Shown here: one piece after another, positions 15,680 to 39,956 of the stretch
Layout: each line of letters begins with the position of its first letter
How positions within the stretch are numbered: the first letter of the stretch is position 1
Assembly: GCA_020852275.1 (NCBI GenBank)
Contig: JADZBE010000027.1
Span: forward strand, 62,001-126,000
Length of the DNA stretch: 64,000 bases
Direction: 5' to 3'
From: Phycisphaerales bacterium
GTDB lineage: Bacteria > Planctomycetota > Phycisphaerae > UBA1845
Translations under genes and position numbers: made by a program
The notes under the pieces: model-generated
The model's database searches: none
What the model saw: only the letters and a program-made list of their open reading frames with translations
What the model was told of the DNA's origin: nothing

Positions 15680-15728
15680 AAAAACGAGGCACCGCTGGGG
15701 CCGGACGACTCCCCCGTCGGCCCCAGCG
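15680..15728 (-). terminator. Strong Rho-independent terminator downstream of small peptide gene
   Basis: On minus strand CGCTGGGGCCG...CGGCCCCAGCG, 11-bp stem, followed by TGCCTCGTTTTT. Confidence 0.85.
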
Positions 15729-15754
15729 GCGCGTCAGCGCGTCTTATCGACCCG

Positions 15755-15937
15755 CTACGGTGTGAACAGATTCACAAAAACGTCGAACAACCAGCCGATC
15801 AGGGTGTGGCCGGTTTCGACCACCATGCCCTGCCACTGGCTCGGCGTTTCACCGCCCGCCAGCGCGACGCCGGGAACCGCCAGCAACGCCAGCAGCACGG
15901 CGCCCATCCACAAACTACCCCTTTGCGTTTTCGCCAT
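15755..15937 (-). CDS. Small secreted peptide precursor, 60 aa
   Basis: MAKTQRGSLWMGAVLLALLAVPGVALA (signal peptide-like) then GGETPSQWQGMVVETGHTLIGWLFDVFVNLFTP; own terminator immediately downstream. Confidence 0.7.
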   Translation of the reverse strand: MAKTQRGSLWMGAVLLALLAVPGVALAGGETPSQWQGMVVETGHTLIGWLFDVFVNLFTP

Positions 15938-16070
15938 AGATGGCCTCCCTGAAAAGAAACACAACGCGCATCCGGATCCTCCCTGCTTTGGCGCAGGGAA
16001 TCTGCACACACCACGTGTTGCAGCGGGCTTTCCGCCTCGCAGCGACGGGCGACCTCGATCCGGAGAACTT

Positions 16071-17333
16071 CTACTTCGAGTCCACGACTCTCGCGGTCCG
16101 GATGATCTGCCAGCCCAGACGCCGGAAGAGCGGGAACTGTCCCACCGCTCCGGTGATCAGGCGCAGGTCTTCTTCATCTATCACGTAATCCAGGTCGTAG
16201 TTCGCGCGGTCCTTCAGCGCCAAGTGGACCTTGTACTCCATGTTGAGCACGCGCTCGCGAATGACCCAGTTGTTAAGCCGGTTGGCGATCTCCAGCCCCT
16301 TGTTCGTCAGCACGGCAATCGCCCGCTGCTGCTCGCGCCCCTGCAGGTGACGCAGCGCCAAGTTCGCCCCGAAAATGCACCACCAGCCGTGGCTTTCCAG
16401 CATGTCGCCGACGGGCAGCGCGTCGGCCTCGTCGAGCTTGGTCATGATCTGCGAGACGACGTCCTGCGCGCTGCGCTGCCCCAGCGCGACCTCCGCTTCG
16501 AGCAGGCCGCCGTGACAGGTGTGTGCGATGCTGGAAGTCTGCTCGTCGCCGAATTCGGTGTGCAGACGGGAGAAGATGTCGCTGGCGCTTTGCAGGTCCG
16601 CCCGCGCGCTTTCCGCGTAGGGCAGCGCGTCCTCCAGCGGAAACTGGAGCATCCGCAGGGAAATGTGACCGCGCACGTAGTAGGCAAAGCCTTGCGTACC
16701 CACGTCGCGCCGGCCCGTCGGAGGATGCTCCGTGTACCAGTCGAGCACGAGCTGGGCGATGCCCCGCGCCTCGGTGATCTCGCCCTGCACGAGCAGCTCA
16801 TACGCCAAGTTTGATTCAAGCATCAGCCGCAGACTGTCCGACAGCGGAACCTGCCGCAGCCCCTTGCGCAGCATCTCCAGCGACTTGTGCGACTGACCGA
16901 GAAGATCCCAGGCGCCGGCCTGTCGCTGGCAGGCAAGCGCCCGCTGCTCCGCCGTCAGCGCGGCCACGAAGGCGCGCTGACTGATCTCGAGCATCCGGCG
17001 GTAGTCGGCGGCGCGGAACGCCTCCATCGCCACCGCGTCGAGCGCCTCGAACGCCGCCTCGTCGTCGCTAGGCTCGATCTCTGAATCATCGAACCAAATG
17101 AAATCCACGACCGCCTCGATGGGCCACTCGAGAATCTGCGCCAGACCGATGACGAAATCGAGCTTGGGGTTGCCGCCCTCGGGGTAGAGCTTGGTGACGT
17201 GACGATCCAGCGCGTCGGCGAGCTGCTTCTTCGACCAGCCGCGATAATGCAGCGCCAAGTCGATCAGCTTGTGCAGACGCTGCTCGCGCTGCTCGGCAGT
17301 GCAGGTTACGGCCCCGAGTTCCATGACGCGCAT
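16071..17333 (-). CDS. XRE-type HTH plus TPR-like helical repeat transcriptional regulator
   Basis: N-terminal HTH LIDLALHYRGWSKKQLADALDRHVTKLYPEGGNPKLDFVIGLAQILEWPIEAVVDFI, then about 330 aa of helical repeats (YRRMLEISQRAFVAAL, AGAWDLLGQSHKSLEMLRKGL, LESNLAYELLVQGEITEARGIAQLVLDWY). Confidence 0.75.
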   Translation of the reverse strand: MRVMELGAVTCTAEQREQRLHKLIDLALHYRGWSKKQLADALDRHVTKLYPEGGNPKLDFVIGLAQILEWPIEAVVDFIWFDDSEIEPSDDEAAFEALDAVAMEAFRAADYRRMLEISQRAFVAALTAEQRALACQRQAGAWDLLGQSHKSLEMLRKGLRQVPLSDSLRLMLESNLAYELLVQGEITEARGIAQLVLDWYTEHPPTGRRDVGTQGFAYYVRGHISLRMLQFPLEDALPYAESARADLQSASDIFSRLHTEFGDEQTSSIAHTCHGGLLEAEVALGQRSAQDVVSQIMTKLDEADALPVGDMLESHGWWCIFGANLALRHLQGREQQRAIAVLTNKGLEIANRLNNWVIRERVLNMEYKVHLALKDRANYDLDYVIDEEDLRLITGAVGQFPLFRRLGWQIIRTARVVDSK

Positions 17334-17781
17334 TCCCGTAAGTCGCAGGTCGGGGCAGGCACGCAACCCGAACCGCCGACAGGCACGGCTCATCCCGGCA
17401 CGCCCGACAAGATCAGTATACAGCGCCGCCGCGCCGAGCCGATCGAACAAACCTTTTTTACTGCAAAAAACCGGTACCGATGCGCGCGGGGGGACTTCTC
17501 CCTACGTTCGATCTGACGAATCAGTCCCGTCGGAGAAGAGCGCGACGCGCCGCAGATGACACTGATCGCGCGCTTGCACGTACCCTGAACATCGCGTCCT
17601 TCCTAGATTGACGTTGAACGACTCGCCAACGCTTCTCCCGCTTCCACTCTGCGCATTGCTTACGTTGCCGGCATCGAGCGTCGTCGCGGATGGCGCGGGG
17701 TCGCGGCACCAGCGTCCACCGAGTGGGCAACATGGGCCCGCGCAGGTTGAAATCCTTTGGCGTCGCGGTCAAAGTCGGCGC

Positions 17782-18606
17782 ATGAGCCTTTCAGCGCCGC
17801 TGCTTTCGGTGCGCGATCTGGTCGTGCGGCACGCGCGCGAGCGGTGTTGGTTGGGCGCGCCATCCGCTCGAACGATGGTGGATCACGTCTCATTCGACAT
17901 CTTCCCTGGCAACAGCCTGGCGCTGGTCGGCGAAAGCGGGTGCGGGAAGACGACGCTGGCGCGAACGGTTCTGCGGCTCACGCCGGCTTCCTGCGGAGAA
18001 GTTCGCTTCGCAGGCCGGGATGTGCTGCGCATGGCCGGACCCGAACTGGCTGCGTATCGGCGCAGCGTGCAGATGGTCTTTCAGGATCCTGCCGGGAGCC
18101 TGAATCCCCGGCTGCGCGTGGCGGACCTGGTGACCGAGCCGCTGCTTATCCACGGTCTGGTCCCGCGCCGGGAACGAAGGCGAACGACACTGCGGCTTCT
18201 GGAGCAGGTGGGACTGGGCACGGCGCACGCGGATCGATATCCGCATGAACTGTCCGGCGGGCAGCGGCAGCGCGTGGGGATTGCCCGCGCGCTGGCGCCC
18301 GTGCCCCGTTTGCTCATCTGCGACGAACCCACCAGCGCGCTGGACGTCTCCGTCCAAGCCGAGGTGCTCAATCTGCTTGCCGACCTCCGCGCCGGGCTGG
18401 GGCTGACCTGCCTGTTCATCACGCACAACCTGGCCGTGGTTCGCACCATCTGCGATGCCGTGGCCGTCATGCACGAGGGGAAGATCGTGGAGACGGGATC
18501 CACGAGCAGAATCTTCACCGACCCCAGGCACGCCTGCACCCGCGCCCTGCTCGACGCCGTTCCCGCGCCCGATCCGCCGTCGCGGGCGTCGTCACCAGCG
18601 GCGTGA
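17782..18606 (+). CDS. ABC transporter ATP-binding protein, Dpp/Opp F-like
   Basis: GESGCGKTTLARTVLRL Walker A, VQMVFQDPAGSLNPR, LSGGQRQRVGIARAL, LLICDEPTSALDVSVQAEVLNLL. Confidence 0.9.
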   Translation: MSLSAPLLSVRDLVVRHARERCWLGAPSARTMVDHVSFDIFPGNSLALVGESGCGKTTLARTVLRLTPASCGEVRFAGRDVLRMAGPELAAYRRSVQMVFQDPAGSLNPRLRVADLVTEPLLIHGLVPRRERRRTTLRLLEQVGLGTAHADRYPHELSGGQRQRVGIARALAPVPRLLICDEPTSALDVSVQAEVLNLLADLRAGLGLTCLFITHNLAVVRTICDAVAVMHEGKIVETGSTSRIFTDPRHACTRALLDAVPAPDPPSRASSPAA

Positions 18607-38937: not shown

Positions 38938-39956
38938 GCACGCATCATCCGGCGACATCGGCGCCCGAGGACGCTCGCGGTGGCGCGCTGTCCTTCGACG
39001 GAAGTCACGCGGGCGCGGCGCACCACGCTGCCGCACTCGAGAGTCGCTCCGGCGACGCAAGCATCCCGACGCCGTGTTGCGAAGCCGCGTCGCCCTCTCG
39101 CGCCAACCGACAGCTTGCATGGGTCGTCGCAGTCCTGCTGGCGATGCTTGCCGGGTCCTACTGGCCTGTACTCACGGAACTGGCGCGCGACTGGGCGTCG
39201 AACGAGGACTACTCGGCGGGCATGTTCGTGCCGGCCGTGGCCGCGTACCTGGTGTGGGAAAAACGCAAGGGACTTGCATGTGTCGGCGGCGCGCCGTTCT
39301 GGGGCGCGGTCGTGTTGATTCTGGCGGCGGAGGCGGCGCGGCTTCAGGGGTTAAGCGACCTGCGGCAATCCGTGGAGCGCTATGCGCTGGTGCTGGAGAC
39401 GATGGGCGTCGTGCTTCTCGTCGGCGGGCTGCCGGTATTCCGCCGCGTCGGGTGGATTCTCGTGTTCCTCTTCCTCATGGCGCCGCTTCCGGGCAGCGTG
39501 CACAACGCGATTTCAGGTCCGATGCAGAACCAGGCCACTTCGGCCGCGAATTTCGTCCTCGAGCTGATGGGCATCGCCGTGCGGCGCGAGGGCAACATCC
39601 TGACGCTCAACGACCGGGTGCAAGTCGGCGTGGTCGAGGCGTGCAGCGGACTGAGAATGATGACCACGTTCGTGATCGTGGCGTCGTTTTTGGCGCTGTC
39701 GATCCGGCGGCCGCGCTGGCAGCGGGCGGCGCTCGTCATTTCGAGCGTGCCCGTGGCGGTGGCCTGCAACGTCGTCCGCGTGGTGTCCACGGCCTGGCTG
39801 CTGCTGGCGACGGACGGCAGCAAGGCGGTCGAGACGTTCTTCCACGACTTCGCGGGTTACGCCATGATGCCCATCGCCGTCGTGCTGCTGGTGGCGGAGT
39901 TGTGGCTGATGTCGAAGCTGGTGATTGAGGATCCGCCGGCACGGACGACGGGGTGA
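38934..39956 (+). CDS. Exosortase/archaeosortase family protein
   Basis: Polytopic; catalytic Cys VGVVEACSGLRMMTTFVIVASFLAL, Arg ACNVVRVVSTAWLLL, His FFHDFAGYAMMPIAVVLLVAELWLM. Confidence 0.88.
   Translation: MSTHHPATSAPEDARGGALSFDGSHAGAAHHAAALESRSGDASIPTPCCEAASPSRANRQLAWVVAVLLAMLAGSYWPVLTELARDWASNEDYSAGMFVPAVAAYLVWEKRKGLACVGGAPFWGAVVLILAAEAARLQGLSDLRQSVERYALVLETMGVVLLVGGLPVFRRVGWILVFLFLMAPLPGSVHNAISGPMQNQATSAANFVLELMGIAVRREGNILTLNDRVQVGVVEACSGLRMMTTFVIVASFLALSIRRPRWQRAALVISSVPVAVACNVVRVVSTAWLLLATDGSKAVETFFHDFAGYAMMPIAVVLLVAELWLMSKLVIEDPPARTTG

Follow-up and report, generated by a model that had tools for sequence, protein, structure and literature searches.

Does a gene pair in a member of the Planctomycetota, with a TPR-type regulator gene directly ahead of one for a short exported protein, encode a peptide sensor resembling the RRNPP systems? 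In Bacillota and in the mobile elements of these bacteria, TPR receptors in the cytoplasm are known to mediate peptide quorum sensing. Two surveys of RRNPP systems deal with Firmicutes and viruses (PMC9765709, PMC10075063). The question is raised by a 64,000-nucleotide stretch of DNA from a Phycisphaerales bacterium (the window), in which an earlier note, made from the sequence, had proposed a candidate RRNPP-like cassette. The ORFs confirmed the reported arrangement of a regulator gene (16071-17333) and a 60-aa ORF (15755-15937), both on the minus strand and 133 nt apart. The features of the locus are as follows.

15680..15729, minus strand: terminator-like hairpin with a T5 run at the end of the two-gene unit (folding; similar hairpins in the related genomes G002 and G003)
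15755..15937, minus strand: 60-aa exported protein with predicted signal peptide MAKTQRGSLWMGAVLLALLAVPGVALA and mature tail GGETPSQWQGMVVETGHTLIGWLFDVFVNLFTP (ORF; kept beside the regulator in G002 and G003; coding pattern)
15944..15948, minus strand: Shine-Dalgarno-like GGAGG ahead of the ATG of the small ORF (sequence)
16071..17333, minus strand: regulator with XRE-HTH and TPR superhelix, 420 aa (ORF; homologues 75-77% identical within the genus and 36-46% identical in the order and class)
16095..17060, minus strand: TPR-like helical superhelix, residues 92-413, with a putative peptide groove (AlphaFold2 model, Foldseek)
17094..17297, minus strand: N-terminal HTH of the XRE/lambda-repressor type, residues 13-80 (AlphaFold2 domain model, Foldseek)
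17415..17420, minus strand: tentative -10 element, TATACT, ahead of the regulator gene (upstream regions aligned for four members of the genus; weak)

Conservation of the gene pair within the genus

The regulator is present in three other genomes of the genus, at 75-77% identity. In two of these (G002 and G003), the 77%-identical regulator adjoins a 60-aa ORF that lies 25-26 nt after it and is 46-47% identical to the small ORF of the window (E 7e-12 and 3e-12); in the third (G001), the contig breaks off within the regulator gene. The window flanks, which encode MutY, an ABC ATPase, an Hpt protein and a deaminase, had no match in the flanks of G002 and G003. Because every other flank differs, only the regulator and the small ORF stay together in the genus, and it is mainly for this reason that we regard the small ORF as a gene and as the partner of the regulator. 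The pair is a genuine, conserved two-gene unit. The ABC ATPase gene (17719-18606, plus strand) is divergent from the regulator and encodes an OppF/DppF-like protein with an oligo_HPY tail. It was rejected as a dedicated importer since it is not kept in G002, G003 or G001, and its position is probably due to chance.

Codon positions 1, 2 and 3 of the small ORF carry 6, 1 and 9 of the differences between G002 and G003, and AAAGGA occupies the ribosome-binding position in both. The codon pattern, ribosome-binding sites and conservation favor translation of the small ORF. A terminator with a T-run had been described downstream of it, and folding agreed with this: the hairpin at approximately 15692-15729 reached -56 kcal/mol (z = -3.7) beside a T5 run at 15680-15684. 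A hairpin and T-run are likewise found 3' of the small ORF in G002 and G003; the hairpin of the window went unreported in a simple terminator scan.

At the other end of the unit, the same-genus homologues of the regulator begin at MELG(AV), corresponding to codon 4 (~17324) of the window gene, with G003 itself starting at MELG; codon 4 may therefore be the true start. The relatives carry TATGAT, TATGAT and TATAAT as counterparts of the TATACT element, which was rated as weak because a sigma-70 scan missed it.

Predicted structure of the regulator

No Pfam family was matched by the whole regulator of the window, and the protein was a good fit to no Pfam, NCBIfam or PADLOC family, the PADLOC match being marginal. 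HTH_3, HTH_31 and HTH_23 gave weak matches in several members of the regulator family. Structure was modeled with AlphaFold2. The first full-length model, built on a 4-sequence alignment (overall pLDDT 76.6), was a TPR-like superhelix with pLDDT mostly 77-97 up to approximately residue 370 and 62-83 beyond it. Since the confidence of the HTH domain was low in this model, the N-terminal domain was modeled separately, yielding a pLDDT of 86.5.

Foldseek searches with the N-terminal domain returned C.BclI, DdrO, SinR, PlcR and other XRE proteins as top matches, with probabilities of 0.99-1.00 yet E values of 0.02-0.2. The full-length model best matched the TPR domains of LGN/Pins bound to partner peptides, and also KLC. 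The first bacterial transcription factor in the list was PlcR with PapR7 (3u3w), at rank 31 (E 2.6e-3; TM 0.36/0.51), so that PlcR was among the matches of both models. These models are consistent with the XRE-type HTH and TPR repeats read earlier from the sequence. The comparison with PlcR that had been suggested as a check for a TPR peptide groove returned a TPR superhelix with PlcR among its matches. The TPR assignment in the window is made from the structure model, and the protein is likely an XRE head on a TPR body of the peptide-binding type, the alignments behind the models being shallow. We infer that the regulator is a cytoplasmic XRE-type DNA-binding protein, acting as a repressor or an activator. 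Residues N175, W317, N324, N344 and W356 are conserved among the regulators.

Distribution of the regulator and export of the adjacent gene product

A profile of 12 members was searched against approximately 750 genomes in all. The regulator was found in 14/114 genomes of the order, 48/400 of the class and 9/399 of the phylum. All nine genomes found at the phylum level belong to Phycisphaerae, the class of the window, to which the family is thus confined among the genomes searched. The genus of the window forms a diverged branch of this family. For 68 regulator regions that were retrieved, the gene behind each regulator was read. Tandem regulator copies, each with or without a partner, were seen at L089 and L090 (G054:C29), L136, L143 and L145, and suggest local duplication of the module.

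The next gene was scored as exported when its product had a hydrophobic stretch of 10 residues preceded by a basic one and a plausible cleavage site, and when its start lay -60 to +150 nt from the regulator stop. By this rule, an exported ORF follows 59 of 71 regulators, compared with 48 of 354 control ORFs (13.6%), the controls being long ORFs of the same genomes from 40 control loci and the window. On inspection by eye, six calls were set aside, comprising L131-L133 and L141 (a cation-efflux-type gene) and L122 and L144 (frame or contig artifacts), and six partners that the rule had missed were added (L031, L046, L088, L091, L095 and L128). The curated count was 59 of 69 usable regulators, or 60 of 69 with the contig-cut partner of L122, and 39 of 47 clusters at 60% identity (Fisher p against the same background, ~6e-32 unclustered and ~4e-22 clustered). 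Because curation was partly by eye, the automatic count is the fair figure. The co-occurrence of regulator homologues with a small secreted ORF, which had been proposed as a test of the pair, was thus found for an exported next gene at about 60 of 69 loci, against the 13.6% background. Regulators L033 and L134 lack an exported partner, as does the clade of L131, L132, L133 and L141, in which the next gene encodes a cation-efflux-type membrane protein.

The gap between regulator and partner was at most 30 nt in 46 of 53 cases and was often -4 (a 4-nt overlap), as for translationally coupled genes. The 133-nt gap of the window was the largest of those measured.

Properties of the exported partners

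The partners range from 60 to 554 aa, with 24 of 59 at or below 107 aa. PEP-CTERM-like C termini (PEPxxLLL...RRR, VPAPGxLxLL...RRRR) are present in approximately 25 of them; a regular expression for this signal gave 28 partners, some of them false. Three partners (L086, L087 and L098) have bodies of ~500 aa that look like right-handed beta-helices by eye. The partner in the genus of the window is the shortest of the family and has no sorting signal: the 60-aa protein of the window lacks the PEP motif, hydrophobic stretch and basic tail of PEP-CTERM proteins, ends in ...GWLFDVFVNLFTP and matched no NCBIfam model. The best-conserved mature stretch of the partner in this genus is GExPSQWQG.

An exosortase of the EpsH family (PF09721, E 3e-58) is encoded at 39141-39908 on the plus strand of the window, ~22 kb from the pair. 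The genome holds a second exosortase outside the window, and five PEP-CTERM proteins.

A motif shared by otherwise dissimilar partners

Of the 59 partners, which are otherwise dissimilar, 33 share the pattern H[TS]xQ[DEG] in their mature part, in forms such as HTNQD, HTGQD, HSNQG, HTMQE and HTVQE; counted by clusters at 60% identity, the figure is 22 of 39. The pattern starts at a median of residue 53 of the preprotein. Several other partners carry near forms (HSDQS, HNEQG, HVSQE and HTVNE); the window partner has no strict match. Composition shuffles of the partners gave 0.18 motifs expected and a maximum of 2 in 1000 rounds, a figure that overstates significance because the motif was chosen after the sequences had been inspected. 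Unlinked controls are the better test. The motif was found in 0 of 472 signal-peptide-like ORFs of the control loci and in 0 of 26 PEP-CTERM proteins of related genomes encoded away from regulators, and the view that exported or PEP-CTERM proteins carry it generally was therefore rejected. Codons at the motif positions are varied. This variation argues that the constraint acts on the protein, and a DNA operator at this position was rejected on the same grounds. A class-wide family with this motif in an exported partner was not found in any library searched.

In a group of partners of 87-106 aa (L102, L103, L107, L108, L112, L113, L127, L129 and L130), the motif takes the form HTxQE (HT[MV]QE), in some of them inside repeats of HTxQExxFxxxMxxxFGxxW. 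Judged by sequence, this group is an undescribed family of small proteins with predicted export. A scan of 30 genomes for the HTxQ DNA pattern found that the sites inspected away from regulators were mostly in unrelated frames. Two exported proteins without a linked regulator carry HTNQ just past the signal peptide (L275, 2387-3925, and L257, 2290-5001, both plus strand), in genomes that have regulators elsewhere; they are possible trans targets or chance occurrences.

On the regulator tree, the motif takes 7 changes compared with a shuffled mean of 19, and the genus of the window sits in a 9-row clade that lacks it. Regulator residues N136, R137, G140, L183 and W184 are kept in 94-100% of regulators with a motif-bearing partner versus 31-58% of the others, an association that is inseparable from phylogeny, since no more than 4-7 independent contrasts can be drawn from the tree. 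With so few contrasts, a tree-based coevolution test of groove residues had no power.

Relationship to known systems

The published RRNPP_detector criteria are a receptor of ~250-500 aa, TPR models at E<1e-5, and an adjacent gene for a Sec-exported propeptide of 10-100 aa (PMC10075063). The window regulator has 420 aa, within this range, and a modeled N-terminal XRE HTH as in the transcriptional members, and it adjoins a 60-aa ORF with a signal-peptide-like N terminus. Among TPR models, the single match was TPR_10, at E 0.051 in one of the 12 profile members, with none in the window protein, and the 12-member profile found no RRNPP receptor among PDB sequences at E<=1. Because size, export and adjacency agree while the TPR threshold is not reached and no RRNPP receptor was recovered from PDB, the pair is RRNPP-like in build and not a member of RRNPP.

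With RRNPP(A) systems (PlcR-PapR, NprR-NprX, Rap-Phr and AimR-AimP), the pair has in common a 250-500-aa XRE-HTH and TPR receptor with a small Sec-exported gene downstream. It differs in lying outside Bacillota, with sequence kinship undetected and Pfam TPR models silent. The partners of its relatives are often large or surface-sorted, with an internal HTxQ motif instead of a known mature peptide. PEP-CTERM/exosortase proteins resemble about 25 partners in the C-terminal signal, and the genome has exosortases; the 60-aa protein of the window lacks that signal, and HTxQ is absent from unlinked PEP-CTERM proteins.

In the WhiJ-DUF397 pairs of Actinobacteria, a small partner gene lies close to an XRE regulator gene throughout a large clade. 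The family described here likewise pairs an XRE regulator with a linked small partner clade-wide, a likeness of architecture. To our knowledge, DUF397 proteins are not exported, unlike the partners in the window family. A mobile-element or defense origin of the pair was rejected, since searches of phage and plasmid records found nothing and the PADLOC match was only marginal.

Candidate functions of the pair

Since a motif of exported proteins is tied to a single family of cytoplasmic TPR regulators, the simplest reading is that the regulator recognizes a segment of its partner. We put at roughly 0.5 the probability that the TPR groove recognizes such a segment and that the two proteins are an autoregulated receptor-ligand pair. 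The two genes would form one co-transcribed unit, with the TPR superhelix as sensor and the exported partner as carrier of the sensed segment. The groove would bind a short stretch of the partner, which in most relatives would be the H[TS]xQ[DEG] element and in the genus of the window a diverged segment, perhaps PSQWQG. Occupancy of the groove would alter how the regulator binds DNA at the common promoter, and perhaps at other sites. The ligand could be a processed peptide that is taken up again, in the manner of an RRNPP pheromone. It could equally be the unexported precursor, giving feedback on export that needs no import. Against recognition stand the lack of a strict motif in the window partner and the ~500-aa and PEP-CTERM-sorted partners, which are unlike known propeptides.

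These same large and sorted partners, about 25 with PEP-CTERM-like signals and a few of ~500 aa, together with the exosortases of the window genome, suit a regulator that locally controls an operon for a surface or biofilm protein, its TPR domain sensing another protein or a metabolite and HTxQ acting at the surface. Partner sequences also turn over fast while the regulator is stable. We consider this a serious possibility, at below even odds: the absence of the motif from all 26 unlinked PEP-CTERM proteins argues against a general role at the surface, and tiny 60-aa partners without a sorting signal fit such a role poorly. At the other extreme, the small ORF of the window could be an unrelated exported protein or untranslated, the family pattern not holding in this genus. 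Its missing motif and its gap, the largest measured, point that way, but retention beside the regulator in G002 and G003, at 25-26 nt and with a ribosome-binding site while the flanks differ, makes this very improbable.

Within the receptor-ligand reading lies the special case raised by the earlier note, a true intercellular pheromone of the RRNPP-like kind that, once exported and cleaved, would return through an oligopeptide permease and be read by the TPR domain. The window pair fits the published size, Sec-export, receptor-length and adjacency criteria (PMC10075063), and an OppA-like protein is encoded in the genome. The diderm envelope, however, demands an extra import step, partners reach 554 aa with an undefined maturation site, and the receptor TPRs fall below the published HMM threshold; we regard this case as rather unlikely. 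The earlier note was correct on the pair but ahead of the evidence in suggesting a pheromone, a reading that is partly supported. For a peptide sensor, the conserved pairing with an exported partner and the TPR fold stand, and sequence kinship to RRNPP receptors was undetectable. For a small propeptide, the 60 aa of the window agree, whereas many partners of its relatives are PEP-CTERM-sorted or of 500 aa.

Implications

No description of such a pair, or of peptide signaling, in Planctomycetota was found in the open-licence literature. We tentatively propose, as a conjecture more doubtful than not, that Phycisphaerae hold a class-wide peptide-sensing family, unrelated in sequence to RRNPP, whose XRE-TPR receptors recognize HTxQ(D/E/G) in a linked exported and often surface-sorted protein. 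Detectors that demand Pfam TPR matches would miss such pairs. The common motif in the exported partner provides a precise and testable ligand candidate. If true, this would be the first case in a diderm phylum of a pheromone system of the RRNPP-like kind, or else a new means by which a cell senses the export of its own surface protein.
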